Shown: positions 18,089 to 31,685 of the stretch, piece after piece
How positions within the stretch are numbered: position 1 is the stretch's first letter
Layout of the letters: each line of letters begins with the position of its first letter
Virus record (IMG/VR): IMGVR_UViG_3300037189_014166
Location: 1 to 32,764 of that record
DNA length: 32,764 bases
Origin: a virus
Reading direction: 5' to 3' (one strand)
Program-made: the position numbers and the translations under genes
The notes under the pieces: generated by a model
Database searches by the model: none
What the model was told of the DNA's origin: nothing
What the model saw: the letters and a program-made list of their open reading frames with translations, nothing else

Positions 18089-18212
18089 GGAGCTACGAAG
18101 GCTGATGGAGCTACGCCGATCATCAGCAGCAACGCCCGTGCCCAGCAAGAAGCACTACTCTCGCAAGAAGACAAAAAATCAGCATAGGAGAACAAATGGC
18201 AACCAGGGCTAA
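18060..18212 (+). CDS. Possible 50-aa basic peptide
   Basis: This frame begins MIHRTKKSSEELRRLMELRR and ends with SRKKTKNQHRRTNGNQG. It would fill the otherwise empty 107-bp gap between the membrane protein and the endolysin. It is very rich in Lys and Arg. It overlaps the previous gene by 29 bp and the endolysin start by 17 bp, including the endolysin Shine-Dalgarno. There is no good ribosome binding site of its own. A shorter start exists at 18105. Confidence 0.35.
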   Translation: MIHRTKKSSEELRRLMELRRSSAATPVPSKKHYSRKKTKNQHRRTNGNQG

Positions 18213-18771: not shown

Positions 18772-18789
18772 GTGCCCGCCGCGAAGCAC
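18772..18789. promoter_or_regulatory. 18-bp dyad GTGC-N10-GCAC before the WhiB gene
   Basis: GTGC (18772-18775) and GCAC (18786-18789) form a perfect inverted repeat separated by 10 bp and end exactly 10 bp before ATG 18800. The same element, with the same spacing to the start, precedes the genes at 31200 (+), 30607 (-) and 28474 (-). The 31200 copy is nearly identical here, sharing CGTGCCC and AGCACCTATCC. Confidence 0.7.
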
Positions 18790-18799
18790 CTATCCAATC

Positions 18800-19033
18800 A
18801 TGGACTGGAAAGAAGACGCAGCGTGTAAGGGCATAGGCATAGCCATCTTCTTCAACCGGCGAACGGCCGAAGAAAGACAAACGGCACTCAACCTTTGTGC
18901 GAAATGCCCGGTTCGAGAAGAATGCCTCGACTACGCACTCGATCACGAAGCCTCAACAACGCTTAGAATAGGCATCTGGGGAGGCACAATCCCGAAGGAA
19001 CGCGGCAAGACAGAGAACGATACCGATGGATAA
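18800..19033 (+). CDS. WhiB-family Fe-S transcription factor
   Basis: The 77-aa protein has the four conserved cysteines that bind a 4Fe-4S cluster: C9 (DAACKG), C33 and C36 (NLCAKC) and C42 (REECLDYAL). The G[VI]WGG turn follows at 58-62 (GIWGGT), with a basic tail PKERGK. WhiB proteins are limited to actinobacteria and their phages and bind the primary sigma factor near region 4 to alter promoter choice. The gene starts the early/replication block, has no Shine-Dalgarno and probably is translated leaderlessly. It overlaps the next gene by 8 bp. Confidence 0.95.
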   Translation: MDWKEDAACKGIGIAIFFNRRTAEERQTALNLCAKCPVREECLDYALDHEASTTLRIGIWGGTIPKERGKTENDTDG

Positions 19034-19619
19034 GCACAACATACCCGTCCAGGAGATCCTTATAAGATACGCGGGCAACTTCCCGATCAGCGATGACGCC
19101 ATATTCAACATCCTGGAGCAGCTACAAGACGCCCAGGACCTGCCACCAAGACTACAGCCGGCAGCAGCCAGATACGCCGTAAAAGTGATCTGCGCCATAC
19201 TCCCAGAGCTAGACGTAGCAAAACCCGAGGATGCCCTGACCGTCTGCGGCCTAGACGCCAGCACACACAAGTATCTAGCCGCAAGCATGATCCAGGGCGA
19301 GGGACCGTGGGCAGGGGAGATAGGACCACTGAGGATCCGAGAGCTCCTGTTCTCGATCCAGGACGGAGAATACCCAGAGGACGCCGCCCAGCGCCTAGAC
19401 ATAGATCCAGGGCAGATGCTTCACCTAAATCACCTCCTAGCACTTCCGGAATACTGGCACGATGAAATCCTGCAACGGGTGCTCATGGTCCGTCACGAGG
19501 GCGGAAAATGGCTCTCAATCGCTCGATTACTGAATACCTGGCGGCCCTCGATAATCCTATCCTGGGTCCGAGAGGCCAGATCGGTCGAGAAAGAGATTCG
19601 AGCTCGTGTGCGCAGATAG
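19026..19619 (+). CDS. Hypothetical protein, possible HTH DNA-binding
   Basis: The 197-aa product is not recognised as a family. Its C-terminal half contains two segments that could be helix-turn-helix units: DGEYPEDAAQRLDIDPGQML (about 125-145) and GGKWLSIARLLNTWRPSIIL (about 158-178), the latter followed by a basic end EKEIRARVRR. The N-terminal half is acidic and helical. Its start lies inside the WhiB stop (8-bp overlap), so the two are co-expressed. A role in early gene control or replication initiation is possible but inferred only from position and HTH-like sequence. Confidence 0.7.
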   Translation: MDKHNIPVQEILIRYAGNFPISDDAIFNILEQLQDAQDLPPRLQPAAARYAVKVICAILPELDVAKPEDALTVCGLDASTHKYLAASMIQGEGPWAGEIGPLRIRELLFSIQDGEYPEDAAQRLDIDPGQMLHLNHLLALPEYWHDEILQRVLMVRHEGGKWLSIARLLNTWRPSIILSWVREARSVEKEIRARVRR

Positions 19620-19642
19620 GGTGTCCAGGCACACTAGAAGGC

Positions 19643-20341
19643 ATGTCCTCATACACCCCAAGCAACAAGTCCCAGCAATGGGGCGAAGGCTACATTGATG
19701 TAGCCACTCGCATCGTCGAGTTCCGCTCGAAGTTCCCAGAAGGATCACTACGCCCCTTCAACCCAGACCAGCCGGTCACAATCATCACCATCGAGGGTAA
19801 GACCTACCTCCAGTATGTAGCCTGCGCCTACCGCGATCCACACGACGCGGCACCAGGCATCGGAGTAGCCTGGGAGCCATTCCCGGGCAAGACACCATTC
19901 ACCAGAGACTCAGAAGCAATGGTAGCTGAAACATCCGCCTGGGGACGCGCAATCGTGGCAACCCTAGCAGCCGATACCAAAAAAGGAATCGCATCAGCGG
20001 ACGAGATTCGCGTGGCAAACGCCCGACGTGAAGCGCCAGCTAAAAGACCACAACCAGTAGAAGCACAAGACCCCTCACCTGAAGAAAGAGAACAGGCCAC
20101 AAGCACAATAGACCAGGGATGGGCATCCGGCGAAGAAGAGAAGCCAGCTCGAGCTAACGCTAAACAGGTTCAGCGCATTCAGATCATGCGCCAACAAGTG
20201 CCAGCTCTACAAGATGACGAGCTGTACCACGAACGCCTGCTCAAGGCCTACGGAGTGATCTCAACGAAAGATCTAACCATCGCTCAAGCAAACGACCTTA
20301 TCAAGAAGCTAGAAAAAGCAATCGAAGCGAGCAAGGCATGA
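19643..20341 (+). CDS. Probable single-strand annealing/recombination protein (Erf-like)
   Basis: The 232-aa protein begins MSSYTPSNKSQQWGEGYIDV. The core YIDVATRIVEFRSKFPEGSL ... AWEPFPGKTPFTRDSEAMVAETSAWGRAIVATLAAD resembles phage Erf/Rad52-type annealing proteins, where an E-T-S-A-x-G-R-A-like motif is conserved. The C-terminal 50 residues (ANAKQVQRIQIMRQQVPALQ ... SFKDLT-like STKDLTIAQANDLIKKLEKAI) resemble the small domain at the end of such proteins. It lies in the same block as a RusA resolvase and a helicase. Start: ATG 19643 has no Shine-Dalgarno at normal distance but has GGCAC-N10-ATG upstream; a longer frame from 19508 overlaps the previous gene by 112 bp. Confidence 0.62.
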   Translation: MSSYTPSNKSQQWGEGYIDVATRIVEFRSKFPEGSLRPFNPDQPVTIITIEGKTYLQYVACAYRDPHDAAPGIGVAWEPFPGKTPFTRDSEAMVAETSAWGRAIVATLAADTKKGIASADEIRVANARREAPAKRPQPVEAQDPSPEEREQATSTIDQGWASGEEEKPARANAKQVQRIQIMRQQVPALQDDELYHERLLKAYGVISTKDLTIAQANDLIKKLEKAIEASKA

Positions 20342-20580
20342 GAGACGAAATCCTCACACCGGAAGAGTCTGTAGCTCGCAAAATCCGCCGCATACAAGTA
20401 CTAATCGCAAACCGCACCGACCACGGAACGTTCGATGGTGATGAGGAAAGCGAACATCTAGCCTGGCTACTCGAAGAACGAGCAAGGTTAGAGGGTGAGC
20501 TGGAATCCACAAAGGATAGCGTCAGACGCCTAAGCAACATCCTACTACAAAACGCGGAGATTGACGGCGATGACCTATGA
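20338..20580 (+). CDS. Hypothetical coiled-coil protein
   Basis: The 80-aa protein is charged and helical: ESVARKIRRIQVLIANRTDH in the front and a heptad-like LAWLLEERARLEGELESTKD behind. It starts at an ATGA overlap with the annealing protein gene and is followed by the HTH-like gene, whose start overlaps it. No known family is recognised. A partner role in recombination or replication is inferred from position only. Confidence 0.7.
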   Translation: MRDEILTPEESVARKIRRIQVLIANRTDHGTFDGDEESEHLAWLLEERARLEGELESTKDSVRRLSNILLQNAEIDGDDL

Positions 20581-20791
20581 CCTACAGGCCCTGGTCGAAG
20601 CATACGGTCGACCGTGGCGAGAGTTTCGCCAAACAGTTCGCACCAACTACGCACTCCTGAATCGATACAAAGACGAAGGCCTGCCTTTCTACGTAGCAGA
20701 TCGGTTCGCAATGCTATGCGACTTACACCCAGTCGAAATCTGGGGGTACGAAGCATGGATCAACGGACCAGAAGCGAAAAGCGCATGCTAG
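20570..20791 (+). CDS. Small HTH-like DNA-binding protein
   Basis: From ATG 20570 the product is 73 aa. The sequence LVEAYGRPWREFRQTVRTNYALLNRYKDEGLPFYVADRFAMLCDLHPVEIWGYEAW resembles small phage helix-turn-helix proteins that end in a LHPxxIWGxEW motif. GGAG is 10 bases upstream. A TTG at 20561 in the same frame is an alternative start. It overlaps the coiled-coil gene by 11 bp and the resolvase gene by 7 bp. The target is unknown. Confidence 0.68.
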   Translation: MTYDLQALVEAYGRPWREFRQTVRTNYALLNRYKDEGLPFYVADRFAMLCDLHPVEIWGYEAWINGPEAKSAC

Positions 20792-21207
20792 AGTTTACAT
20801 TCAAAGTTCCCTCACACCCGCTCTCGGAAAACGAATCACGCCGGCTCCACTGGGCCGCACGTAGTCGCAGACTGAAACCGTGGGGGATCTGCACAATGGC
20901 CGCCTATCGAGCAACCGATAAAAAGGACCGAGACACCTTACAAGGTCAGAGGATCCGTATCGAAGTGAGCATCCCGTTTTTGCGGGCTGGACGCAGAGAT
21001 AGCCATAACTACGTCTCCACAGTTGTGAAGACTATCGTCGACGCCCTTATCACCGAAGGCATGGCGCCCGACGACACACCAGAATACGTTCAGGTCATAG
21101 AACCACATCTCGTGGTTAGAAAGACTCTCGACGTAGTGGTGCTCCTTACGCCCATCGGTCCGACACAAGGAGAACCAGATGTCAAAACTAACCAACTCAT
21201 CAGCTGA
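20785..21207 (+). CDS. rusA: RusA-like Holliday junction resolvase
   Basis: The 140-aa protein fits the RusA family that cuts four-way DNA junctions during phage recombination and replication. It has PSHPLSENESRRLHW in front and the catalytic block RRDSHNYVSTVVKTIVDALI ... GMAPDDTPEYVQVIE, with Asp72, Lys82, Asp86 and Asp96/97 in the positions expected for acidic metal-binding and lysine residues. Length is typical. The chosen start at 20785 overlaps the previous gene by 7 bp; the longer open frame upstream is a shadow of that gene. Confidence 0.85.
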   Translation: MLEFTFKVPSHPLSENESRRLHWAARSRRLKPWGICTMAAYRATDKKDRDTLQGQRIRIEVSIPFLRAGRRDSHNYVSTVVKTIVDALITEGMAPDDTPEYVQVIEPHLVVRKTLDVVVLLTPIGPTQGEPDVKTNQLIS

Positions 21208-22801
21208 GCAGAAGCTCGTGGGAGCCTGCCTAAACAGCGGAGAGATTCTCAACAAGATTATCGATCGGGTCGCACCAGGAGACTTCGACGACCAGAAACT
21301 AGGCACGGTGTTCAGTGCGGCAGCACGAGTCGCAACACGCGGCGACATCAACGCCCAAGCGGTGATCGAAGAGCTGAGAATCTCAATGGAGCTAGACTTC
21401 ATCGGTGGGGACAAAGCAATCACCTGGCTAGCAAACCGACCAGCAAAAGATGATGAAGTTCTCGAAGCAGCAAAGATGATCCAGAACCTAGCACGCCGTC
21501 GGGATCAAGCAATAGCAGCACGTGCCGCAGCTCGCACAATCGAAGAGGGCGGAGATCCAATCGCAGAGATCGCCTTGCTGAATCAAGTAGTCACAAGCTC
21601 AGACGACGATGGCTGGACCGACCTGGCACCGATCGTAGACTCAATCATAGCAGGAACACACCACCGACTCGAACCAGAGATCTTGAAAACCTGTGCCGGC
21701 AATGCGCTGATTTACCCAGGACGACTAAACATGATCATGGGAGCACCGGAATCAATGAAGTCATGGACAGCCAAATACGCCTGCGTGCAACAGATGATGG
21801 CTGGCCTGCCGGTCATCTACATCGACTGTGAAGAATCAGACGGAATCACTTGTTCAGAGCGCATCTACGCCATCGCACTAGGGCAAGGAGTCACCAAAGA
21901 AAAGCTTATGGATTGGATGAAGGGACCGCTAGACGAGAACGGTGAAAGAGATCGCAGCAAACGACTCTTCTACTACAAAGCCGAGACCGGAGGACTAGAC
22001 GGCAGATCAAGAGCACAGGTGCTCCGGCTTGTCAGAGCTCAGAAAGTATCATTCGTAGTGCTAGACGGCTTCGCAGCTGCAATGGCCTCACACAACCCGC
22101 CACTAGAAGAAGACAAAGCCAGAGACGTGAACATGTTCCTCTCAGGCAGCCTATGGCCAATCGTGAACGCAGGAGCAGGCGTTCTAGTAGTCGACCACAT
22201 CGCTAAAAGCTCCGGCCATCAAGCCGCCGGTTCGTTTCAACAAAGAGGCCCCCGGGGGTCAGGAGCTAAGCTTGCCTCAATCAGCGGTGTAGCCCTACAA
22301 GCGTCAGTGGTCATAGCCGGCTCAAGCTGGACCCCAGGCAAGGTAGAGCTCTACGTATCAAAAGATAGACCCGGCAGAGTCAAGATCGTTCAGCGCAACA
22401 ACAAGCGTCTGGCCGGAGTACTAGTCTCAACCCCAGACAACACCAACGGCATCGAGACAACCAAGCTGGAGCTTCTCAGCCCAGAGGAAATCGCCACACA
22501 ACAAGCCGAAAAGCGCTGGGACCTTATAGCAGCAGAAAAGATATCTAGACTGCTAGTAAACACCAACGCCCCAATGTCAAAGACCGACATCAAAGAAACA
22601 CTCAACGACGCCAGAAAAGCAGCCGGAGGAGCAGGATGGAGAGCAGACACGCTTGTAAAAGCGATTGACTTCCTCAGCACAAACAACTGGGTAAGGCTAG
22701 AAAAATCAGGCCGCCAGGACATGATTGAGTCACTCGTCGAGTACAAATCCGAATTCGGCGACATCCACAGCGAAGAGAAGCCGATGGGGAACCCATTCTA
22801 A
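21179..22801 (+). CDS. Replicative helicase-like ATPase (DnaB N-terminal domain plus RecA/RepA-type core)
   Basis: The 540-aa product has a DnaB-type N-terminal helical domain (residues about 7-110, SAEQKLVGACLNSGEILNKI ... DFDDQKLGTVFSAAARVA) and a RecA-like ATPase of the AAA_25/RepA kind. Walker A is GAPESMKS (188-195), with Met where Gly is usual, and Walker B is FVVLD (292-296). VVDHIAKSSG is a likely sensor motif. The C-terminal 100 residues may form a winged helix (SKTDIKETLNDARKA ... WRADTLVKAIDFLSTNNWVRLEKSG). It probably unwinds DNA for phage replication. AAGGAG lies just before the ATG; the stop overlaps the next start by one base. Confidence 0.88.
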   Translation: MSKLTNSSAEQKLVGACLNSGEILNKIIDRVAPGDFDDQKLGTVFSAAARVATRGDINAQAVIEELRISMELDFIGGDKAITWLANRPAKDDEVLEAAKMIQNLARRRDQAIAARAAARTIEEGGDPIAEIALLNQVVTSSDDDGWTDLAPIVDSIIAGTHHRLEPEILKTCAGNALIYPGRLNMIMGAPESMKSWTAKYACVQQMMAGLPVIYIDCEESDGITCSERIYAIALGQGVTKEKLMDWMKGPLDENGERDRSKRLFYYKAETGGLDGRSRAQVLRLVRAQKVSFVVLDGFAAAMASHNPPLEEDKARDVNMFLSGSLWPIVNAGAGVLVVDHIAKSSGHQAAGSFQQRGPRGSGAKLASISGVALQASVVIAGSSWTPGKVELYVSKDRPGRVKIVQRNNKRLAGVLVSTPDNTNGIETTKLELLSPEEIATQQAEKRWDLIAAEKISRLLVNTNAPMSKTDIKETLNDARKAAGGAGWRADTLVKAIDFLSTNNWVRLEKSGRQDMIESLVEYKSEFGDIHSEEKPMGNPF

Positions 22802-23646
22802 TGACATCAATCAGCAGCCTTACAGCCCGGCTATCGCGACCCGAATGCGAACCGCTAACACCAGAACGAGAAGCAGAACTGGGAGACCAGATGCGGATAG
22901 CCCTGGAGGAAGACGACGAGCTGGCCATCTCCCGGATCAGGGAAGAGCTAATCATGCGCCACCTCCGCCTGGTTCTCCACATCGGCAAGAAGTTCAAAAC
23001 CGCCCTAGAGTGGGACGAAGTGGTGGCCGTTGGATCGCTGGCCCTCACCCACGCAGCTGGACGCTGGCACCCGGACAAGGGTCAGATGTACCCGTGGGCT
23101 GAGAGATGGATCACAACCGGACTAACCCGTGCCGTCGACGCCTCCAGATCAATCAGGATCCCACAGGGTGTGGCCTACAAAGCTGCCCTAGTGAACAAGC
23201 GACTGAACCAGGCCGAGTCAGAGCTCGGAAGACCCCTGACAGCCGAGGAGAAAGCAGAGCTCACCGGAACAGATCTAACCTTCGACGACCTGCCACAGAT
23301 GAGCCGAAGCCTGGACGAGCCAAGCAACAGGTTTTCATCGTATGCCGGAGAAGGGGCAACCCGCACACTTGGAGAAGAACTAGAAGAAGAGGGCTCAGAC
23401 CCCGCCGAGATCGTAGAACGAGATCAGACGATTGAGGCGGTCAGGACGGCCCTCGAAGAACTGACCGAACTTGAGAAGGAGATTATCATGAGTCGATTTG
23501 GCATCGACGACGAAAAGCGGGAGACCCTAGCCCAGCTCGGGGAGAAGCATGGAGTGACCGGGGAGGCCATGCGCCGAGTCGAGGCAACCGCACTCGCCAA
23601 GCTACGCCACCCAGCCATGCTCAACCCAATCGAGGTAGCGCGATGA
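22801..23646 (+). CDS. Phage-encoded sigma-70 family factor
   Basis: The 281-aa protein has the parts of a primary-type sigma factor. Region 2 (about 45-118): NLRLV-like RHLRLVLHIGKKF, EWDEVVAVGSLALTHAAGRW, the aromatic MYPWAERWITTGLTRAVD and SRSIRIP. Region 3: VAYKAALVNKRLNQAESELGR and LTAEEKAEL. Region 4 (about 207-272): LTELEKEIIMSRFGIDDEKR, with the HTH TLAQLGEKHGVTGEAMRRVE and a final ATALAKLRHP. Region 1.1 and the usual -10 recognition residues are diverged. It should direct host RNA polymerase to phage promoters. Overlaps: TAATG with the helicase gene and ATGA with the zinc-ribbon gene. Confidence 0.92.
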   Translation: MTSISSLTARLSRPECEPLTPEREAELGDQMRIALEEDDELAISRIREELIMRHLRLVLHIGKKFKTALEWDEVVAVGSLALTHAAGRWHPDKGQMYPWAERWITTGLTRAVDASRSIRIPQGVAYKAALVNKRLNQAESELGRPLTAEEKAELTGTDLTFDDLPQMSRSLDEPSNRFSSYAGEGATRTLGEELEEEGSDPAEIVERDQTIEAVRTALEELTELEKEIIMSRFGIDDEKRETLAQLGEKHGVTGEAMRRVEATALAKLRHPAMLNPIEVAR

Positions 23647-24497
23647 CCAAAATGACAACCATCGAGCTCCGCTACGATGCGCTTATCGACGAAGGCATAG
23701 ACCCAAACAACCTGGTATCATACTGGGCCGAGAAGGGCGTCAAAGTGGTCTGGGGCGACCCGGGCGGATTCATGGCACACAACACAAAGCTACCAGAAGG
23801 CACCAAATACCGTGAGTGCCCTGGATGCTCAAGGAGCAAAGCCCTACACACATCTCGCTGGGAGAGGAACGTCAGAGCAAATGGCGACCTCGGCCGCTGG
23901 AAACCGGTCTGCAGGTCCTGCGCCAGAAAAGCCAAACAACGGCCATGTATGGAGTGTAAGGAAAAGAGAGACCGCGAGAGCTTCATAGGCAAATCGCGAA
24001 CCTGCATCAAGTGCCGGGAAAAGCCACCTGAGCTACGAAAGAGCAAGTGCACCAAGTGCCGCAAGAGAAAGCCAGGAAACAAGTTCGCCCTCACAAAAAC
24101 TGGACGCTTCAACAGCTGGTGCCACGACTGCGTGGGCAAGGCATCCCTGGCCGGGGTCATGGAGAAGTACCACGCCTCTTCCAAGAGCTGCCGAGACTGC
24201 CAGGAGACCAAGCCCCGATCTGAGTTCCCAGTGGTAGACTCCAAGAGAAGCCATTTCTGTAACCCCTGCTATCAAGCCCGCGTGACAGCCACAGAGAGAA
24301 CCTGCACCTCATGCAAGACCACCCGGCCGATTGAACGCTTCCACAGGCACAAACAGGGACCAGCTCAGCTAGGATCCATCTGCGCCGACTGTAACAACAG
24401 GGTCACCCAGATCAAGGAAAGCCGCAGAAAAGCCCGGGAAAGAGCACAAAAAGATGAGCAAGCCAAACGGGGTGTTTCGGACAAAAAGGGGCTCTGA
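23643..24497 (+). CDS. Protein with five tandem zinc ribbons
   Basis: The 284-aa protein contains exactly 20 cysteines in ten CxxC pairs, grouped as five four-cysteine units of about 30-45 residues: C59/62-C90/93, C102/105-C121/124, C136/139-C160/163, C183/186-C206/209 and C221/224-C247/250. Most units read CxxC-K/E-T/R-K/R-P-x-x-x-F ... CxxC, a zinc-ribbon form often found next to HNH nucleases, but no HNH motif is present. The N-terminal 50 residues (IELRYDALIDEGIDPNNLV) are separate and the tail is very basic. It is translationally coupled to the sigma gene by an ATGA overlap. Nucleic-acid or RNA-polymerase binding is inferred; the function is unknown. Confidence 0.85.
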   Translation: MTKMTTIELRYDALIDEGIDPNNLVSYWAEKGVKVVWGDPGGFMAHNTKLPEGTKYRECPGCSRSKALHTSRWERNVRANGDLGRWKPVCRSCARKAKQRPCMECKEKRDRESFIGKSRTCIKCREKPPELRKSKCTKCRKRKPGNKFALTKTGRFNSWCHDCVGKASLAGVMEKYHASSKSCRDCQETKPRSEFPVVDSKRSHFCNPCYQARVTATERTCTSCKTTRPIERFHRHKQGPAQLGSICADCNNRVTQIKESRRKARERAQKDEQAKRGVSDKKGL

Positions 24498-24539
24498 CCA
24501 GGACTTTTACCGTCGAATCATCTTGAAAAGGAGACGACT

Positions 24540-24577
24540 CGCAACCACGAAACGTGGCACCCCGTATTGGGGTTGCG
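24540..24577. other. Candidate attP: 38-bp imperfect inverted repeat centred on CA
   Basis: Bases 24540-24577 pair in 14 of 19 positions around an axis between 24558 and 24559. The outer arms CGCAACC and GGTTGCG match perfectly, and the central dinucleotide is the non-palindromic CA. It lies 73 bp before the serine integrase gene. Serine-integrase attP sites are about 50 bp, imperfectly symmetric, with a central dinucleotide, and usually sit beside int. The same bases could instead fold as RNA with two small hairpins (24545-24557 and 24560-24572). Confidence 0.55.
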
Positions 24578-24650
24578 GTGATTGCTAAACCAGCGAGGGC
24601 GCGCACAGTATGTAGCGTAGGGAGCCGACCAACCCTCAAGAGGAACGACA

Positions 24651-27494
24651 ATGACCGACCAAGAGCTAGACAACACAGCAGACCAGCTGGCACGCCTACA
24701 GCGTAGCCGCCACGAGAAGAAAGCCCAGGCTGCGCAGAGTGCGAACTCAGGGCAACCAGAAGGCATCGAACACTTCGTGGGTATCCGCGAGTCAGACAAG
24801 AACGCTCACAAGAGCAACGGAGCACAAGCCAGCGAGTTCACGCTGATGGCAGAACACACGCTCGACCGATCTGACGTCAAAATACTTCCGGGAGCTCAGA
24901 CCATCCGATCGATGGCAGCAGACCTAGTAGGCAACGACGGCAAAGCACAGGATCTACGAGAGCAGATCGGAGCGGTCGCAGTATACGAAGACCACATCCT
25001 GGTCGGCTACAAGATTGTGATCGAGAACACACTTTACCTGCTCAGCCTCTACTCAGCAGCAAAGGTCAAGATCAAAGAAACAGGCGGCCTGGTCGGAATG
25101 GATAACGCCTACAGTCTCGCGGTGGCTCGTCTGGTCAACCAGCACCAAATCAAAGTACTACACGTCGGCCCCTTCCACCGCCTGGTCCGTCACCAGAAAG
25201 CGATGCACGATCTCCTAGTCGCACTAGGACGCAACAAGACAAGAGTGATCGCGGACGGCACCGACCTCGACATGGGAACAGACAACGGTCAAGACATGTT
25301 CCGAATCAACGCGCTCGCCGGCGAAAAGCAATACATCGGAGCAGTCGCGGGACTAACAAACGGATGGCACGGACGACTCGACCGAGGCCAGTGGCCAAAG
25401 AGCGAAGGCCAGCTCCCAGCGATCGGCTACAAGTTCCGAGGCGAGAACGACCCGACCCCGATCCCTGATCTAGACAAGATCCAGATGATCCGAGACATCA
25501 TCACCTGGGCCGGAGACGAGAGCCTAAGCGACTACGACATCGCCGAGAAGATCGCCAAGACCTACGGCTGGGTCAGCGATGTGAAGAAGAGCCGCAAGAA
25601 CCAAGAAGCAGCTCAGATCACAGACCTGAAGTATCCAGAGACGGCAGTAAGAAACCTCCTCAAGCGCGGACTCCCACTCTGGGCGACCGGCAGCTACGCC
25701 TTCAAGACCGGAGTGCCATACCACCTAGAATCAGGCAAGCTACGCCCAAGCTCACAGGAGCGCATGGAGCAGCTGGACCAGGACACCCGCCAAGTCACCT
25801 ACGACGTGAGCTTCCACCACGAACTGCTCCCAGGCGGAGAGTGGATCGACCAGGCCTCAATCGCCAAAGCCATCAAGCGACTCACCGAGAGAGAAGAGAA
25901 GAACCAGGGCCGCGCAGCCTCGAATACGGATCGCAAACCACTAAGCTCGGTAGCAGAATGGAGCGCCGAGGGCACGCAGCACGCACTCTCAGCAAGAGAC
26001 AGCCACAACTACATCCTGATCAGCCGAGACGAAAGCCTAGCAAAGAACCCGGACGGAACCTACAACGGGTGGCACGATGAGGACCGAAACGTCCTAGCGG
26101 TGCTAAACCCCGAGGAGACCCACAAGGCGCTCGCAGAGGCGCTCATCGAGGCCATAAGCGAAACCGGCATGAACTGGACCCGGATCGGCAACACCACGGT
26201 AGAAGACTCAGCAGCCCTAGAGGACTCAAAGAGGATCGACCAGCTGGCCCAGGAATCAATCAAGATCGAGAAGGAGATCCTGAACGCAGAGTTCGACTAC
26301 CAGCTCGCCCGAGAAACAGGCAGCATCGAGACGGCGAAGAACCGCATTGTCCTGATCGAGAAGCTACGCAAAGACCAAACTGCGATCCAAGAGCGTGTAG
26401 CACAAGCCCAGAGCGCGGCCACAGCCCAGCGCCTCCTGAGCAGCGAAGCAAAGATCGACGCAGGATCGGTGGTCGCCACACTAGCCGCCCTAGCAAAGAC
26501 ACAAAACCAAGCCCCGGCTAAACTCAACCACCTGATGCGTCAGATCCTAACCGGAATGACACTAGAGGTCGCAGAGAACGGACTGACCGTCAAGATCACA
26601 ACCAAGATCAAGGTCGAGACGACAGACGGAACGATCATACTAGGCCCGGTCAGCACAAGCGTCACAAACAAGCGCCGCGAACTGAAGACAGCCCGGTCAT
26701 CAACCCTACTCGAAGACTTCCTGGCAAACGGCCTAAGCCTCGACGAAGCGATGATCAAGGTCGGCTACAAAGACCGCGAGTTCGCACGAGCACGACTACA
26801 CCAACAGCTCAAAGATGCCGACGTGATACCTACCAAAGGACTACGCTCAGCAATCGTCGACTGCCCGATCGTGGAGCTCCGCCAGGTCATCTGGGCGATC
26901 ATCCAGGCAAAGCGAACAGGAAAGACCTTCCGAGTGCCAAAGGGAATCAACCCAGCCTACGCAGCTCACATCCGCAGCGTCTACACGGACAAAGGAATGA
27001 ACTGGAACTCTAGCTGGGCATCAGACAACCCAGAGCATAGCAGAAACGCTATCGAGCTCCTCCAGCGCAACGACCTGGAAAACGGAATGCGATGGGACGA
27101 GATCCTGCCAGCAGTAGCTGCAGGACTAACAGGAGGATCAACAAGAGGCATAGAAGAAGAGCTGGTGCGAGGTAAGGGCAAGCAAAGCGCAGCCACCGCT
27201 AAGCACACAAGAATCGCCTACGAGCCGGTACTCGAGCGCGACGAGAAGTGGGATCGACACAACAAGAACCGCATGGTCTGGATCCGCAAGTGCTCACACT
27301 GCGACACCAGAACCCTCACCCACATCCTCCGAGTGCCGGAGATCCCAGGCGGCCTGATCTGCACAACCTGCCGCAAAGCCCCAGAGCTGCCAACCATCAC
27401 CTTCGGGCCGGAATACGGCAAAATCTGGAACGGGCCACGCACACTAGGCAAGGGCAAGAGCCAGGCCTGGAGCACAGGAACCACAACAGCCTAA
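24651..27494 (+). CDS. int: Large serine integrase (unusually long, 947 aa)
   Basis: Diverged but recognisable. GIRESDKN ... SNGAQ (residues 44-59) matches the YxRxS...S..Q start of serine recombinases, with S48 the likely nucleophile and R46 beside it. FHRLVR (175-180) matches the RLxR motif. EKQYIGAVAGLTNGWHGRLDRGQWP ending in LPAIGYKF (225-262) matches the hinge helix and the P-x-GY start of the recombinase domain. DYDIAEKIAKTYGW follows. A coiled coil lies about 524-586, and a C-terminal zinc ribbon has C881, C884, C904 and C907. Typical members are 450-700 aa; residues about 680-870 are an extra region with no recognised fold. AGAGGA precedes the ATG. Confidence 0.82.
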   Translation: MTDQELDNTADQLARLQRSRHEKKAQAAQSANSGQPEGIEHFVGIRESDKNAHKSNGAQASEFTLMAEHTLDRSDVKILPGAQTIRSMAADLVGNDGKAQDLREQIGAVAVYEDHILVGYKIVIENTLYLLSLYSAAKVKIKETGGLVGMDNAYSLAVARLVNQHQIKVLHVGPFHRLVRHQKAMHDLLVALGRNKTRVIADGTDLDMGTDNGQDMFRINALAGEKQYIGAVAGLTNGWHGRLDRGQWPKSEGQLPAIGYKFRGENDPTPIPDLDKIQMIRDIITWAGDESLSDYDIAEKIAKTYGWVSDVKKSRKNQEAAQITDLKYPETAVRNLLKRGLPLWATGSYAFKTGVPYHLESGKLRPSSQERMEQLDQDTRQVTYDVSFHHELLPGGEWIDQASIAKAIKRLTEREEKNQGRAASNTDRKPLSSVAEWSAEGTQHALSARDSHNYILISRDESLAKNPDGTYNGWHDEDRNVLAVLNPEETHKALAEALIEAISETGMNWTRIGNTTVEDSAALEDSKRIDQLAQESIKIEKEILNAEFDYQLARETGSIETAKNRIVLIEKLRKDQTAIQERVAQAQSAATAQRLLSSEAKIDAGSVVATLAALAKTQNQAPAKLNHLMRQILTGMTLEVAENGLTVKITTKIKVETTDGTIILGPVSTSVTNKRRELKTARSSTLLEDFLANGLSLDEAMIKVGYKDREFARARLHQQLKDADVIPTKGLRSAIVDCPIVELRQVIWAIIQAKRTGKTFRVPKGINPAYAAHIRSVYTDKGMNWNSSWASDNPEHSRNAIELLQRNDLENGMRWDEILPAVAAGLTGGSTRGIEEELVRGKGKQSAATAKHTRIAYEPVLERDEKWDRHNKNRMVWIRKCSHCDTRTLTHILRVPEIPGGLICTTCRKAPELPTITFGPEYGKIWNGPRTLGKGKSQAWSTGTTTA

Positions 27495-27568
27495 CCCTTG
27501 CAAGCCGAGGGCACGCACCAACGGTACTAGGAGACCCCGCATGGGATCACTGACCGCAGGAGTGCCAC

Positions 27569-27805
27569 ATGAAGCTGATCGAACACGCAACACCAATACG
27601 AGTGCCGGGCATCCGTGAGCTCTTCGAATACTACATGACCAAGAGTCAAAAGGCTCTGATCAACATAGCGTTCGACCAAGAGAAGACACAGGAGCTACAG
27701 ATCGAAGAGTTGGAAGAAGCAAACCCAGAGCACAACTTACAGTATGACACGCATAACCAATCAAGAGCGGTGGAACCGCCGCGCAACCCTGACGACCAGC
27801 ATTGA
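27569..27805 (+). CDS. Hypothetical protein
   Basis: The 78-aa product (MKLIEHATPIRVPGIRELFEYYMTKSQKAL ...) has a good AGGAG six bases before the ATG. The front is mixed, the middle is an acidic helix (DQEKTQELQIEELEEANPEH), and the end is disordered. It follows the integrase by 74 bp and could be transcribed with it. A role in excision is conceivable by position only. No family is recognised. Confidence 0.65.
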   Translation: MKLIEHATPIRVPGIRELFEYYMTKSQKALINIAFDQEKTQELQIEELEEANPEHNLQYDTHNQSRAVEPPRNPDDQH

Positions 27806-27896
27806 ACCAATCGCAGAACTACCACTAGCTGATAAAAGCCAAGACTGCGTAGACGGATCGTGTGACTGTAACACAGAGGACGAAAGCGCAGAATAA
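27744..27896 (+). CDS. Possible 50-aa cysteine-containing peptide
   Basis: The frame MTRITNQERWNRRATLTTSI ... QDCVDGSCDCNTEDESAE starts inside the 27569 gene (62-bp overlap), fills the stretch up to the terminator and ends 10 bp before it. GCAC lies at -14 to -11 from the ATG, the same position as in the leaderless genes of this phage. There is no Shine-Dalgarno. The CxxxxCxC group may be metal-binding. Support is limited to these points. Confidence 0.4.
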   Translation: MTRITNQERWNRRATLTTSIEPIAELPLADKSQDCVDGSCDCNTEDESAE

Positions 27897-27906
27897 GTGC
27901 GGTCAA

Positions 27907-27943
27907 GACGAAGGCCCCCGGAGAATATCCAGGGGCCTTCGTC
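27907..27943. terminator. Bidirectional intrinsic terminator
   Basis: GACGAAGGCCCC (27907-27918) pairs perfectly with GGGGCCTTCGTC (27932-27943) around a 13-base loop. It stands between the rightward integrase block and the leftward holin gene, ending 16 bp from the latter. The bases after it are only moderately T-rich (ATTCTCT). Confidence 0.85.
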
Positions 27944-27958
27944 ATTCTCTAGCGAATG

Positions 27959-28168
27959 CTAAGCATTGACGCCAAAGCGATCGTCGTTCGGATCTAGCGC
28001 AGTAATGATAAGCGGCAGCACAGCTGCAACTCCGGCGCTAACATAAGTGCGTAGGTCGCTGAAATCGACTGCGAAGAGATCGGCGCCGTTCGATAGAAAC
28101 AGACCGAAGACCGTAGCAGCAAAAACCTTGACGTAGCTCTTGATTGCGTTGATAGCTTGGATTGACAT
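27959..28168 (-). CDS. Holin, r1t-like, two membrane segments
   Basis: The 69-aa product begins MSIQAINAIKSYVKVFAATV. It has two hydrophobic segments (about 12-28 and 42-60; YVKVFAATVFGLFLSNG and YVSAGVAAVLPLIITAL), a short acidic link and the ending LDPNDDRFG typical of actinophage r1t-type holins. It should form the membrane lesions that release the endolysin. The start at 28168 is fixed by AAGGAGG a few bases upstream. The frame is open upstream and continuous with an HNH domain (next entry), so this start lies inside a longer frame. It is far from the endolysin gene and on the opposite strand. Confidence 0.82.
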   Translation of the reverse strand: MSIQAINAIKSYVKVFAATVFGLFLSNGADLFAVDFSDLRTYVSAGVAAVLPLIITALDPNDDRFGVNA

Positions 28169-28474
28169 TCTCACCTCCTTAGTGTGCGGGCAGAGACCGT
28201 CTCCAACACGACGGCCGTGGTTACAGGTGGCACAGAGAAGCTGGTAGCGATCACGCGGCCAAAAGCCGGTAGCTCGCCATTCCCTGCGAATCAAACGAAT
28301 GGTTACATTCGTATTGCTATCACGACGATGAGCAGTGCCCCCGCCGTGAATGTGGTCGAACACGAGCGCCCAACTCCGCTTCTCGCCGCAGCAGACGCAG
28401 ATTGGCTTACCGCCCGCAATGCCAATCATCGTCTCTGTCCGAAGGCGACGGCGTGATTCTGCGGAGTCGGGCAT
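27959..28474 (-). CDS. HNH domain in frame with the holin (possible fusion)
   Basis: From ATG 28474 the frame encodes 171 aa. Residues 15 to about 97 are a small HNH/endonuclease-VII-like zinc nuclease: CVCC (about 26-29), the catalytic pair in VFDHIHGGGTAHRR, and the second zinc pair in YQLLCATCNHGR. Such proteins normally stop soon after; here the frame runs without a stop through GLCPHTKEVR into the holin, and the holin Shine-Dalgarno encodes KEV. Translation from 28474 therefore gives an HNH-holin fusion, while internal initiation gives the holin alone. A GTGT-N10-GCAC dyad lies 10 bp before the ATG. HNH genes next to other genes are often mobile. Confidence 0.68.
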   Translation of the reverse strand: MPDSAESRRRLRTETMIGIAGGKPICVCCGEKRSWALVFDHIHGGGTAHRRDSNTNVTIRLIRREWRATGFWPRDRYQLLCATCNHGRRVGDGLCPHTKEVRMSIQAINAIKSYVKVFAATVFGLFLSNGADLFAVDFSDLRTYVSAGVAAVLPLIITALDPNDDRFGVNA

Positions 28475-28484
28475 AACCAGACCT

Positions 28485-28502
28485 GTGTTAGATCCCGGGC
28501 AC
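28485..28502. promoter_or_regulatory. 18-bp dyad (GTGT-N10-GCAC) between divergent genes
   Basis: Read on the minus strand this is GTGC-N10-ACAC, ending exactly 10 bp before the HNH-holin start at 28474. One base differs from the perfect copies at 18772, 30618 and 31172. It lies in the 96-bp region between the leftward gene at 28474 and the rightward gene at 28571, and so may serve both. The following bases on the minus strand, AGGTC-GG, match those before the methyltransferase start at 31686. Confidence 0.6.
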
Positions 28503-28570
28503 AGACACGCGCCGAGGGCACGCAGGACCGGGCGTATGTTCCAAGTGAAACACCCGGCACGATAGAGAGC

Positions 28571-28762
28571 ATGAAAACGATCTCAGTCAAAGAAGCCATG
28601 TGGCGCACAGGAACGACGCTGAGCAGGGAACGGTTCATCCGGCTCTGCGAGGACATGGGAGCATACGAGGAGGGGCGAGTCAACCTCCAGGCCTTCTACG
28701 GAGCACACGTGCCAATCACCAAACCCCCAAAGATCAGGATCATGGGAACCGTAAACCTATAG
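28571..28762 (+). CDS. Small HTH/excisionase-like protein
   Basis: The 63-aa protein starts MKTISVKEAMWRTGTTLSRE and continues RFIRLCEDMGAYEEGRVNLQAFYGAHV. This resembles a short MerR/Xis-type winged helix, where a K-E-A helix leads to a turn and a second helix, and then a grv beta wing. With a serine integrase in the same genome it is a candidate recombination directionality factor or switch protein. There is no Shine-Dalgarno; GGCAC-N10-ATG precedes the start, as in other leaderless genes here. Function is inferred. Confidence 0.6.
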   Translation: MKTISVKEAMWRTGTTLSRERFIRLCEDMGAYEEGRVNLQAFYGAHVPITKPPKIRIMGTVNL

Positions 28763-28809
28763 CAGAGCGCCCCCAGCACGCAGCACACAAAGAAACAAGC
28801 GCTCTGGGA

Positions 28810-28827
28810 TTGCCATGCCAGGGGCAC
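28810..28827. promoter_or_regulatory. Imperfect copy of the dyad before the transglycosylase gene
   Basis: TTGC-N10-GCAC, with TTGCC and GGCAC arms, one base from the consensus GTGCC-N8-GGCAC. It ends 18 bp, not 10 bp, before ATG 28846. A CCAC at the usual -14 position is also present. Confidence 0.4.
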
Positions 28828-28845
28828 CCGACCACCATTCTAAGC

Positions 28846-29208
28846 ATGAAGCGAACCGCCATCGCCCTCGGCGCAGCCACGATCATGAACCTCGTGGGAG
28901 CGCCCTCAACCGGGCAAGCAGCAGCAATACCGACACTGACACCCAAGCAATACGCCAAAAACGCCTCAGACGGCCTCTGGAGGCCCGCAGAGTGGCAATG
29001 CCTGGAAGAGCTCTGGCACAGGGAGAGCAGATGGAACCCAAAGGCCGACAACCCCAGGTCGAGCGCCTACGGCATACCCCAGATCCTGGGGCTCGACGAG
29101 AGACTAAGCCCCTTCCAGCAGATCGACGCGGGGATCCGATACCTGCTCCACAGACACGAGACCCCATGCCGGGCGCTCTCGTTTCACAACAAACGAGGGT
29201 GGTACTAG
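28846..29208 (+). CDS. Secreted transglycosylase/lysozyme-like protein
   Basis: The 120-aa protein has a signal peptide-like start (MKRTAIALGAATIMNLVGAPSTGQAAA, cleavage likely near 27). The mature domain EWQCLEELWHRESRWNPKADNPRSSAYGIPQIL ... QQIDAGIRYLLHRHETPCRALSFHNKRGWY is the short lytic-transglycosylase fold of actinobacteria, with the catalytic Glu probably in HRESRW. It could help cell entry, lysis, or change the wall of the lysogen. It has no good ribosome binding site. It lies far from the main endolysin but close to the minus-strand holin. Confidence 0.82.
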   Translation: MKRTAIALGAATIMNLVGAPSTGQAAAIPTLTPKQYAKNASDGLWRPAEWQCLEELWHRESRWNPKADNPRSSAYGIPQILGLDERLSPFQQIDAGIRYLLHRHETPCRALSFHNKRGWY

Positions 29209-29283
29209 AAACCGCCTGGCATCAACGCCCCCAGCGCCGACGGTATACGGCAGAAGGAAAACCAAACACCAAAGGAGAAACAC

Positions 29284-29499
29284 ATGAAAGACAGACTGCA
29301 CCTGATGAACCAGCTCACGGACATCATCTACTACCAGATCAAAACAGAAGGTGGTAAGAACGAGGGAGAGCGAATCCTAGCAAGGGACATAGCCGGCGAC
29401 ACACTGAAGGCGATCGAGAAACTACACGGAGTATACAAAGCCCTAGACCAAGAAAGCCAGGCAGCCTACATAGAGGCGCGAAAGAACAACCAGATGTAA
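29284..29499 (+). CDS. Hypothetical helical protein
   Basis: The 71-aa product (MKDRLHLMNQLTDIIYYQIK ...) has AAAGGAG directly upstream and is entirely helical and hydrophilic, with ARDIAGDTLKAIEKLHGVYKAL in the middle. No domain is recognised. It ends just before a bidirectional terminator. Confidence 0.7.
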   Translation: MKDRLHLMNQLTDIIYYQIKTEGGKNEGERILARDIAGDTLKAIEKLHGVYKALDQESQAAYIEARKNNQM

Positions 29500-29519
29500 A
29501 AAGCTGAAGATAAAGAACA

Positions 29520-29547
29520 GCCCCGCCGGACTTCTCCCCGGCGGGGC
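29520..29547. terminator. Bidirectional intrinsic terminator
   Basis: GCCCCGCCGG (29520-29529) pairs perfectly with CCGGCGGGGC (29538-29547) across an 8-base loop and is followed by TTCATCATT. It separates the converging genes ending at 29499 (+) and 29555 (-). Confidence 0.85.
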
Positions 29548-29554
29548 TTCATCA

Positions 29555-29755
29555 TTAGGTCCGAGGCTTCGGGGGCTTCGGGTTATCGGTGGAATAAAAG
29601 CCACCACCTTTGAAGACAGCGTTCGGCGAGCTGTAGATCCGCTGAGCAGGATTGCCACAAGCAGCACACTTCACCTGAACGTCACGATCCTCGATGGGGC
29701 GGCTCGCAACCGTGAGCTCGTTGCAGAGCATACAGCGATACTCGTAGTTAGGCAT
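29555..29755 (-). CDS. FmdB-like zinc ribbon protein
   Basis: The 66-aa protein MPNYEYRCMLCNELTVASRP ... VQVKCAACGNPAQRIYSSPN, ending FKGGGFYSTDNPK, is a clear FmdB-family zinc ribbon. C8/C11 and C30/C33 are the metal pairs. The family's biochemical role is not well known, though often called regulatory. The start at 29755 has GGAGG six bases upstream and overlaps the preceding gene by 8 bp. It is the last gene of a leftward operon. Confidence 0.92.
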   Translation of the reverse strand: MPNYEYRCMLCNELTVASRPIEDRDVQVKCAACGNPAQRIYSSPNAVFKGGGFYSTDNPKPPKPRT

Positions 29756-29888
29756 CGGAAACCTCCACATCAACGTCAGCGCAAGCTGCGCAGAACATCT
29801 TACCTTGCACGGGCTTGGTCTCGCCACACATAGAGCAGAGCACATCTCCGCCACGACACTTACAAGGGTGCCAATACTCACAGCACAT
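29748..29888 (-). CDS. 46-aa cysteine-rich zinc protein
   Basis: This gene is short but well supported. ATG 29888 has GGAGG seven bases upstream, and it overlaps the previous gene by one base (TGATG) and the FmdB-like gene by 8 bp. The product MCCEYWHPCKCRGGDVLCSM ... CGETKPVQGKMFCAACADVD has eight cysteines (2, 3, 9, 11, 18, 21, 33, 36). C18/C21 and C33/C36 form a CxxC...CxxC zinc ribbon. Its function is unknown. Confidence 0.75.
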   Translation of the reverse strand: MCCEYWHPCKCRGGDVLCSMCGETKPVQGKMFCAACADVDVEVSDA

Positions 29889-30085
29889 CAGACAACCTCC
29901 TTCTTCCGGCGCTTACGCTTGAATACATCAGGGTCTGAAAGCTCAGCCTTCGGAACACGGACAACGATCGTAGGATCCTTGATCTGATAAAGCAGGATGA
30001 GATCACCAGTGGCCTTGTCGTAGTACTTCGCGGCAAGCTGGGCCTCACCATTCTTCGGAGGATAACGTCTAGGCTTGCGCGGCAT
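29888..30085 (-). CDS. Hypothetical basic protein
   Basis: The 65-aa product (MPRKPRRYPPKNGEAQLAAK ...) has a basic start, a beta-like middle (YYDKATGDLILLYQIKDPTIVVRVP) and a very basic end (KRKRRKKEVV). GGAGG lies six bases before the ATG. It overlaps both neighbours in the leftward operon. Both ends look capable of binding nucleic acid, but no family is recognised. Confidence 0.75.
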   Translation of the reverse strand: MPRKPRRYPPKNGEAQLAAKYYDKATGDLILLYQIKDPTIVVRVPKAELSDPDVFKRKRRKKEVV

Positions 30086-30347
30086 CAGGCACCTCCAACA
30101 AAAGCTCAGCAGTGGTCACCGCATCATCGAAAGAACCAATGAAACCGTCAACCAAAAGAGTCTCTACAACCTCGGCAACACGAGCAGGAAGAGCCTCGAG
30201 ACGAGGAACAAACTCCTCCGCATGCTGAAAGATAGCAAACTCATCGATGCCGTTCTCAACAAGGATACGCATCTCCCCAACCTTTATAATCTGGGTACGA
30301 ATCTTGGTACACCCATTAGGATGCCAGGCGGTCTGACACTTGCTCAT
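30069..30347 (-). CDS. Hypothetical protein
   Basis: The 92-aa product starts at an ATGA overlap with the HTH gene. The N-terminus has two cysteines (KCQTAWHPNGCTKI); the rest (FAIFQHAEEFVPRLEALPAR, VAEVVETLLVDGFIG, VTTAELLLEVPDA) is helical and acidic. GAGGGTGA lies upstream. It overlaps the next gene by 17 bp. No family is recognised. Confidence 0.72.
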   Translation of the reverse strand: MSKCQTAWHPNGCTKIRTQIIKVGEMRILVENGIDEFAIFQHAEEFVPRLEALPARVAEVVETLLVDGFIGSFDDAVTTAELLLEVPDAAQA

Positions 30348-30607
30348 AGCTCACCCTCAATCGGTGCAATCTTCTTGGCAACGGTAGCACGACGGCTCTG
30401 ACCCTCAGGGCGCAGGAGATCACGAAGAGCTCCCTCGGTAATCCCTAGACGGCTGGCGGCCTTGCGGATGGACAAGCCCTCGGCTTGCCACTGAGTAACA
30501 GCAGAACGCACACGGGATCTATAAGCAGCGGCTGCTTGATCGGCGGTGGCCCGGGATGCAATCATCGAAGCTCGGGCAAGCTTCACTTCATCAACTGGAT
30601 CGGTCAT
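30344..30607 (-). CDS. Small HTH protein, first gene of leftward operon (candidate regulator)
   Basis: The 87-aa protein has a clear helix-turn-helix at about residues 44-67 (EGLSIRKAASRLGITEGALR), after a long N-terminal helix that could be a dimer interface. The end is basic. The operon it leads includes two zinc-ribbon proteins. Its start has no Shine-Dalgarno and is preceded, exactly 10 bp upstream, by a perfect GTGC-N10-GCAC dyad, so autoregulation is plausible. It is the best candidate here for the phage repressor or switch protein, though HTH proteins like this also occur as terminase-type or resolvase-type DNA binders. Confidence 0.75.
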   Translation of the reverse strand: MTDPVDEVKLARASMIASRATADQAAAAYRSRVRSAVTQWQAEGLSIRKAASRLGITEGALRDLLRPEGQSRRATVAKKIAPIEGEL

Positions 30608-30617
30608 GACTCAAAGT

Positions 30618-30635
30618 GTGCCTGGCCCTGGGCAC
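30618..30635. promoter_or_regulatory. 18-bp dyad GTGC-N10-GCAC before the leftward HTH operon
   Basis: GTGC (30618-30621) and GCAC (30632-30635) form the dyad; with the next base on each side the arms are GTGCC and GGCAC, separated by 8 bp. It ends 10 bp before the minus-strand ATG at 30607. A further GGCACAC follows at 30638. Confidence 0.75.
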
Positions 30636-30648
30636 GCGGCACACGATC

Positions 30649-30768
30649 CTAGCGAGAAGGAAAGTACAGCTGCATCAAGACGGTGCCGGCAATGGCAACG
30701 ATCCAGAGCACAACCTTCAACAGGAGCTCGAGTCTTTCATAAGGCTGGTTCATCAGGCGCTTCAACAT
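30649..30768 (-). CDS. Possible 39-aa membrane peptide
   Basis: The frame MLKRLMNQPYERLELLLKVV ... ATAG-side end LMQLYFPSR has a basic start and one strong hydrophobic segment (about residues 15-34, LLLKVVLWIVAIAGTVLMQL). A TTG at 30798 in the same frame would add a second hydrophobic stretch (WGLALTVLG), giving a 49-aa two-segment, holin-like peptide. There is no good ribosome binding site. It lies upstream of the HTH operon, in an otherwise empty 590-bp region. Confidence 0.35.
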   Translation of the reverse strand: MLKRLMNQPYERLELLLKVVLWIVAIAGTVLMQLYFPSR

Positions 30769-30852
30769 ACCCAGAACAGTGAGCGCCAGCCCCCACAAAG
30801 CACATAGGTAAGACCGGGAATATGAATGAGGTTCGCGCCCCCAGCGCGGAAC

Positions 30853-30955
30853 GTCACGGGAATGTCACGGGAATGTCAAACCCTATCACGCCCCCAACGC
30901 GCACGCGTTCCCACGCAGGGATTACCCTCTCGGCCGTTGACATTCCCACATTCCC
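30853..30955. repeat. Iteron-like repeats (GGGAATGTCA and inverted copies)
   Basis: An 11-bp unit GTCACGGGAAT occurs twice in tandem (30853-30863, 30864-30874) plus a partial GTCA. GGGAATGTCA is at 30858-30867 and 30869-30878. The inverted form TGACATTCCC is at 30938-30947 with a further ACATTCCC at 30948-30955. A 9-bp inverted pair, CGCGTTCCC (30904-30912) and GGGAACGCG (30990-30998), surrounds these. Probably a replication origin or control region. Confidence 0.65.
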
Positions 30956-31048
30956 CCAGTCCCGAAGGGACGGGGGAACTGTGAGGAATGGGAACGCGAG
31001 GTCATCCCCAGGGACAGGGAAACGGAATAGCATTCCCAGAGATTCCCA

Positions 31049-31184
31049 CCCCCCCAGGTACATACCCCCCACCACAGAACCCCCCCACCCTAAGATCACA
31101 AGGCCCCCCGATCCAAACAAAGCACCCCCCAGGGTCATACCCCCCCGGGGCTAGGCAACCCCCCAAGATGCGTGCCCACCCCCC
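31049..31184. repeat. Eight C6-7 tracts (G-tracts on the other strand)
   Basis: Runs of six or seven C begin at 31049, 31065, 31080, 31104, 31125, 31140, 31159 and 31179, 15-24 bp apart. The minus strand therefore has eight G-tracts able to form one or two G-quadruplexes. No credible gene is present in 30810-31199: the open frames there are only Pro- or Gly-rich low complexity created by the tracts. Confidence 0.85.
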
Positions 31185-31189
31185 AGCAC
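31172..31189. promoter_or_regulatory. 18-bp dyad GTGC-N10-GCAC before the HNH gene
   Basis: GTGC (31172-31175) and GCAC (31186-31189) are a perfect pair, ending 10 bp before ATG 31200. The run CGTGCCC ... AGCACCTATCC is shared with the WhiB copy at the same positions. It overlaps the last C-tract. Confidence 0.65.
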
Positions 31190-31199
31190 CTATCCCAGC

Positions 31200-31529
31200 A
31201 TGCCAATGAAACCACACACAAGATGCACCGAACCGGGATGCCCGGAGCTGGTGTCAGGAGCGAGATGCACAGAGCATCAGAAGCAGAGAGAGAAGGCTCG
31301 AGTAGAGCGTGAGGTCTGGAGAGACTACGGACCACAGTGGAAACACATCAGACGCAGGGTGCTCAGAGCTGAGCCGAACTGCAGGATGTGTGGAGAAGAG
31401 GCAACAGAAGTGGACCACATAGTATCCCTCAAAGAAGGCGGGACTCACGACCTGGAGAACCTAAGACCCCTCTGTAAATCGTGCCACTCTCGCAGAACTT
31501 ACTACGACACGCTTGGTCGGGAAAAATAA
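31200..31529 (+). CDS. HNH endonuclease
   Basis: The 109-aa protein has a front zinc pair (RCTEPGCPELVSGARCTEH), then a full HNH motif: CRMC (about 62-65), EVDHIVSLKEGG, DLENLRPLCKSCH with the second zinc pair and SRRTYYD. HNH proteins of this size next to the terminase genes are known partners of HK97-type terminases that help cut the cos site. The gene is a few hundred bases before the methyltransferase and terS. The start has no Shine-Dalgarno and carries the dyad 10 bp upstream. Confidence 0.93.
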   Translation: MPMKPHTRCTEPGCPELVSGARCTEHQKQREKARVEREVWRDYGPQWKHIRRRVLRAEPNCRMCGEEATEVDHIVSLKEGGTHDLENLRPLCKSCHSRRTYYDTLGREK

Positions 31530-31685
31530 AAAGCTCAGCGCAAAAAAAATCGCAGAAAAAAAATAAAAAGGGGAAGGGGGGTCAAAATTGTGAAATGATT
31601 TTCGCGCAATACCGCGCCCGAGGCTCGGCGCGTGAAATGACGAGTTAGAGTGGAAATGTCACCACCCCTGAGCACAGGTCAGGCC
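31522..31685. other. Intergenic A-tract and G-run region (possible cos/packaging region)
   Basis: From the end of the HNH gene to the methyltransferase there is no gene. A-tracts lie at 31522-31526, 31528-31532, 31542-31549, 31556-31563 and 31565-31569, roughly one helical turn apart, followed by GGGGAAGGGGGG (31570-31581) and an AT-rich stretch. This would bend DNA. Its place between the HNH gene and the packaging genes makes a cos or packaging site plausible. Confidence 0.4.

Follow-up and report, generated by a model that had tools for sequence, protein, structure and literature searches.

A conserved start-associated element in an uncultivated phage group is a candidate leaderless promoter core

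Why should the same pair of short boxes stand at exactly the same distance before the start codons of different phage genes, on both strands? This question is raised by a 32,764-nucleotide stretch of viral DNA (IMG/VR record IMGVR_UViG_3300037189_014166; the whole stretch is called the window here), in which the original prediction had noticed inverted repeats of the form GTGC-N10-GCAC and had read them as an operator or promoter core bound by a dimer. The sites and their spacing were borne out, but the description as a dyad was not. The dyads at 18772-18789, 30618-30635 and 31172-31189 each end exactly 10 bp before an ATG, and the same spacing is found for a copy that is one base off (28485-28502, GTGC-N10-ACAC, minus strand) and for a copy before a methyltransferase gene (31658-31675, GTCA-N10-GCAC, ATG at 31686). 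The supposed copy before a transglycosylase gene (28810-28827), however, lies 18 bp instead of 10 from the ATG at 28846 and is thus out of register. The exact dyad occurs four times in the window (18138, 18772, 30618 and 31172; the copy at 18138-18155 had been overlooked) against 0.69 expected, and one of 100 shuffles reaches four. When two mismatches are allowed, the symmetric pattern GTGCC-N8-GGCAC is found 22 times against 17.1 expected, which is chance level, and the symmetric description is therefore wrong. An asymmetric pattern anchored on the start codon (GTSCC-N9-GCAC-N3-T-N6-RTG, at most one mismatch) yields six matches against 0.18 expected. No shuffle reaches six, and five of the six are the 18772, 30618, 31172, 28485 and 31658 sites.

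With the terminase protein as query, 77 loci of relatives were collected. Those with a terminase 74-85% identical form one group, whose members range in GC content from 37% to 60%; G040, a more remote member, has 64%. Orthologues in the diverged motif-bearing relatives are 46-79% identical. An alignment of 22 sites from the window and its relatives on the start codon gives the consensus G-28 T-27 S-26 C-25 C-24 C-23 A-22, followed by G-14 C-13 A-12 C-11, T-7 and RTG at +1, with 8 bp separating C-23 from the GCAC box. C-23, C-13, A-12 and C-11 are present in every site, G-14 in 21 of 22, G-28 and T-7 in 20 each, and T-27 and C-24 in 19 each, whereas position -26 is C in 12 sites and G in 6. The left box is mostly GTCCCC in the relatives, and the dyad symmetry is not conserved across the alignment; the window happens to carry GTGCCC, and from this the palindrome arises. 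Since the GTCCCC of the relatives is not complementary to GCAC, the alignment indicates that the palindrome is incidental and the element directional. Binding by a dimer, a claim that rests on the palindrome, loses its basis with it.

Of the 22 copies of GTSCC-N9-GCAC in the motif-bearing genomes, ten lie exactly 10 bp upstream of an open frame; the spacer controls give 2 (1 bp shorter) and 1 (1 bp longer), and the reversed motif gives 3. Of the five best window matches of a matrix trained without the window sites, four are start-anchored sites and the fifth is 18138. The DNA around the element has diverged between orthologous loci, while the element itself is kept at the same distance before the starts. 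In an ungapped comparison of the window with the relatives G007 and G014, motif columns are 80% identical, a figure somewhat inflated because these very sites belong to the alignment from which the columns were picked, and all other columns 29%, which is near chance level. The conserved, phage-specific, start-associated element is real, and this conservation lends good support to the earlier view of a regulon element, operator or promoter core, before starts on both strands.

As to its function, we propose, with a probability of roughly 0.58, that the element is a phage-specific directional promoter core giving rise to leaderless mRNAs, the likeliest reader being a sigma factor encoded by the phage itself at 22801-23646. 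A start distance constant to the single base, across different genes and both strands, is what one would expect of transcripts that begin with the start codon itself; in that case T-7 would close the -10 hexamer. Most transcription start sites of Mycobacterium tuberculosis have a TANNNT centred 7-12 bp upstream, and leaderless transcripts come from about one quarter of its genes (PMC3898074). The corresponding hexamer of the element is ACNNNT, preceded by GC. Because AC instead of TA stands at -12/-11, in all 22 sites, the element departs from the TANNNT of host SigA and was not counted among the leaderless promoters of host SigA. Shine-Dalgarno four-mers precede only 3 of the 22 motif genes as compared with 89 of 174 other genes, whose starts were taken mechanically (Fisher p 0.001; 17% in random sequence). 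Between operator and promoter core, the base positions relative to the start codon fit a leaderless -10 element better.

In the proposed mechanism, GCACnnnT (-14 to -7) would stand in for the -10 element, transcription would begin with the start codon's first base, and GTSCCCA (-28 to -22) would serve as a second recognition box in the spacer. This box might be contacted by sigma region 4 in an unusual position, by a helix-turn-helix (HTH) protein or by a WhiB-like protein, both of which the phage encodes. The units headed by the element would then be the whiB block, the two leftward genes (HTH and HNH-holin) and the block of HNH, methyltransferase and terminase genes. Since the whiB block contains the sigma gene, positive feedback would result. 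It is a more tentative idea that we are dealing with a new promoter class, in which the phage sigma would read GCACnnnT together with GTSCCCA only 9 bp upstream of the hexamer, most transcripts would be leaderless, and specificity and start selection would be fused in a 28-bp element.

The putative reader, a plus-strand gene product of 281 aa that the original prediction did not mention, belongs to the sigma-70 family (phrog_351, E=1e-25; Pfam Sigma70_r4). It matches SigA of PDB entries with E=2e-29, and its AlphaFold model (pLDDT 70.6, a moderate confidence at which it was used only to confirm the family) matches mycobacterial SigA in Foldseek with E=2.5e-10. In the -10-reading region, SigA has YATWWIRQAITR and the phage sigma WAERWITTGLTR; the reading residues are WAERWITTGL in the phage protein versus YATWWIRQAI in SigA, and the -35 helix has TGEAMRR in place of TRERIRQ. 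Most departures from SigA are common to the phage homologues, and a GEA(M/V)RR core is present in all seven aligned phage sigmas. These residue changes would suit a different promoter specificity, without proving it. The sigma gene was found in G000, G001, G007, G008, G014, L104, L110 and G040. In 22 terminase relatives at a greater distance it was not detected, and six large records without a detected sigma (about 218 kb) gave no start-anchored matrix match.

Several observations weigh against this assignment. GTSCCCA lies too near the -10 position for region 4.2 at normal domain spacing, and the alignment of the phage sigma with SigA has short gaps but no long ones between regions 2 and 4. 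Owing to this proximity, the left box may need more than sigma to account for it; a co-factor, with the HTH and WhiB proteins as candidates, is possible there. G040, the most distant carrier of the sigma gene, shows only a faint version of the element, and G003, G006 and L006 are fragments in which the sigma gene could not be seen. The co-occurrence of sigma and element is confounded by relatedness, and the WhiB and HTH proteins co-occur with it too. As the element also heads the block containing the sigma gene, another start would be needed for the first round; a simple scan of the window for sigma-70 promoters gave none that convinced us (SigA consensus 3 versus 5.8 expected).

The geometry of the left box may also speak for a different reader. 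The WhiB-like family is known to bind sigma region 4, and a host SigA promoter might be redirected by a phage activator, WhiB or HTH, at GTSCCCA, much as MotA/AsiA of T4 redirects sigma-70. From its position in the spacer, the left box could offer an activator a contact that substitutes for the -35; the phage does encode a WhiB-like protein, and the HTH protein is conserved together with the element in G000, G007, G014 and G040. Yet GCACnnnT does not have the TA found in the host's TANNNT -10 element, and all motif carriers whose sequence is complete enough also encode a sigma factor in which the residues that read the promoter are changed, so that we regard redirection of SigA as unlikely. 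Somewhat less probable still is a dyad operator for a dimeric, autoregulated phage regulator that would control overlapping promoters. The HTH protein, the first candidate of the original prediction, would be that regulator: its model, a long helix followed by an HTH, would be compatible with a dimer, and the element stands before its own gene in three lineages (G000, G007 and G014). But an operator needs neither a single-base spacing to the start codon nor T-7, the variation at -26 leaves GTCCCC against GCAC in place of a conserved palindrome, no separate promoter signature was found beside the element, and the phage also encodes a sigma. The HTH protein is thus a possible reader only.

Fixed distances to start codons would also suit a translation-initiation or mRNA-leader element, as has been proposed for the start-associated sequences (SAS) of Cluster K phages; such sequences of unclear function are indeed found in mycobacteriophages (PMC3203893, PMC11373665). 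We consider this improbable here, since the element is not complementary to the anti-Shine-Dalgarno sequence, Shine-Dalgarno matches are at background level, and no GTSCCC/GCAC stem can form in most relatives. Moreover, the SAS consensus GGGATAGGAGCCC does not exceed chance in the window, with no match at up to two mismatches and six at three mismatches versus 8.1 expected. Chance or coding coincidence is hardly credible as a general explanation. Dyads of this kind do exist (18138-18155 and 28810-28827), and the methyltransferase copy of L004 sits at 11 bp; however, the leave-one-out scan, the spacer controls and the conservation across lineages contradict coincidence, and for the whiB, HNH, HTH and HNH-holin sites it is refuted.

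Taking the leaderless promoter core as the preferred reading, we can go through its sites one by one. The whiB motif (18772-18799, plus strand) consists of GTGCCC-N8-GCAC at 18772-18789 with T-7 at 18793 and the start at 18800, and orthologous sites with identical spacing are present in six relatives. It precedes the whiB-like gene (18800-19033, plus strand, 77 aa; Pfam Whib, E=2.6e-17), the first of a block running to the helicase and sigma genes. The motif of the HNH endonuclease (31172-31199, plus strand), upstream of the methyltransferase and terminase genes, is conserved in G001, L004, L006, G007 and G014, and that of the leftward HTH gene (30608-30635, minus strand) in G007 and G014. At the leftward HNH-holin-like gene (28475-28502, minus strand) the right box of the window is ACAC instead of GCAC; at the same place G007 has GTCCCC-N8-GCAC and G014 TTCCCC-N8-GCAC. 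The methyltransferase motif (31658-31685, plus strand; GTCACC-N8-GCAC-N3-T before the ATG at 31686) is among the five best matrix matches and overlaps a second possible start in frame, ATGTCACC at 31656. G007 has GCAC-N10-ATG at this gene. Because the spacing is 11 bp in L004 and the frame can start at 31656, we rate this site as probable only, plausible from its sequence but unsure.

Two plus-strand candidates are weak. At 28543-28570, GCAC (28557-28560) lies exactly 10 bp before the ATG at 28571 with a poor left box, and the divergently oriented gene in G007 carries a full site. At 19615-19642, GCAC (19629-19632) lies exactly 10 bp before the ATG at 19643 without a left box, and GCAC is found at the same place in G007, G014 and L110. 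Of two further plus-strand dyads, the imperfect one at 28810-28827 is clearly a decoy. The exact dyad at 18138-18155, a probable decoy, lies within a conserved small reading frame with no start codon 10 bp on. It was rejected as a fourth member, as this stretch encodes a conserved VPS-x-(K/R)HYSR (VPSKKHYSR in the window) and a codon change has removed the G of GCAC in L104, L109 and L110; judging from this coding pattern, the dyad is probably a coding coincidence. The next start, preceded by a Shine-Dalgarno sequence, follows the same dyad at 41 bp, and the matrix scores this dyad highly in several genomes. Given this score, it could alternatively be a leadered promoter overlapping coding sequence.

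The HTH protein (30344-30607, minus strand, phrog_7061) has 87 aa with a long N-terminal helix and the HTH, and may act as alternative reader or co-factor. Its AlphaFold model has a pLDDT of 82, a fold search gave no significant match, and it is conserved in G007, G014 and G040. It is faintly similar to sigma region 4 (PF08281, E=0.009, below the cut-off), and there is a resemblance between its recognition helix, ITEGALRDLL, and VTGEAMRRVE in the phage sigma. The leftward protein at 27959-28474 combines an N-terminal HNH-like part (phrog_2255) with a C-terminal membrane or holin-like segment and shows 66% identity to its counterparts in G007 and G014. A tract very rich in C runs (31045-31165), immediately upstream of the HNH endonuclease gene beside the terminase genes, is also found in relatives and is possibly a cos region. 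A second repeated motif, (A/G)C(A/G)CCCCCAGCACGCA, is present at 28769-28783; its copies lie all on one strand, mostly intergenic and about 40-75 bp before some starts (oriented positions in G014: 26104, 26917, 27794, 29355, 31678 and 31802; in G007: 19085). The 947-aa protein at 24651-27494 has no Pfam match above the cut-off and no PHROG match; a relative 33% identical occurs in G040 and none is listed in the nearer G001, G007 and G014, as in a mosaic gene. The protein at 23643-24497 has a C-terminal Lar-like or endonuclease VII-like zinc-binding part (phrog_5558, E=3.5e-11).

Positions 1-87 of the window are identical to 32678-32764, pointing to a circular or terminally redundant assembly; with this end repeat counted once, the circular sequence has 32,677 bp and a GC content of 54%. 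A search of a phage collection with the window DNA found no near relative among cultured phages; the cultured-phage relatives of terminase and helicase are distant and indicate no host. Genome contigs searched with the sigma alignment contained distant sigma factors only (best 34% identity), from many unrelated phyla and again without indicating a host. The WhiB-like gene suggests an actinobacterial host.

Predicted promoters and transcription starts for an uncultivated phage group, as well as a candidate polymerase specificity factor, are thus obtained from sequence alone, and the motif also corrects annotated start codons. If the proposal is true, the phage group has leaderless promoters of its own, with two boxes in an unusual arrangement, and these would bear on how a sigma factor can read a box in the spacer and on why regulated phage messages should be leaderless.

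Phage sigma promoters and leaderless promoters are known kinds, but their sequence, geometry and combination as seen here were not found in the literature searched, a limited body of open-access text, in agreement with the earlier statement that no such element is known for this phage type. T4 middle promoters combine a MotA box and a -10 element, involve AsiA, and use host sigma-70 with a normal TATAAT -10. Like the element, they have a phage-specific box that replaces the -35 at a short distance from the -10; box sequence and distance differ. The nearest start-associated counterparts, the SAS/ESAS of Cluster K (PMC3203893, PMC11373665), are likewise repeated, tied to several start codons and kept between related phages. 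However, the SAS lie 3-9 bp from the start with a Shine-Dalgarno-like core and differ in sequence, place and symmetry, and the ESAS are 17-bp inverted repeats with SigA-like promoter hexamers, unlike the element. The TANNNT leaderless promoters of M. tuberculosis (PMC3898074) share with it the end about 7 bp before the start, T-7, the missing Shine-Dalgarno sequence and ATG/GTG starts, whereas the element has AC for TA at -12/-11, a near-invariant GC at -14/-13 and the upstream GTSCCCA. As in phiEco32 and phage 7-11 (PMC4331800), a phage-borne sigma-70-family factor is accompanied by a short asymmetric non-host motif before transcription units, here as a putative target of the sigma. Whereas an extended -10 makes up the whole of the phiEco32-type motif (TAATGTATA), the element consists of two GC-rich boxes, 8 bp apart, at a fixed distance from the start codon.

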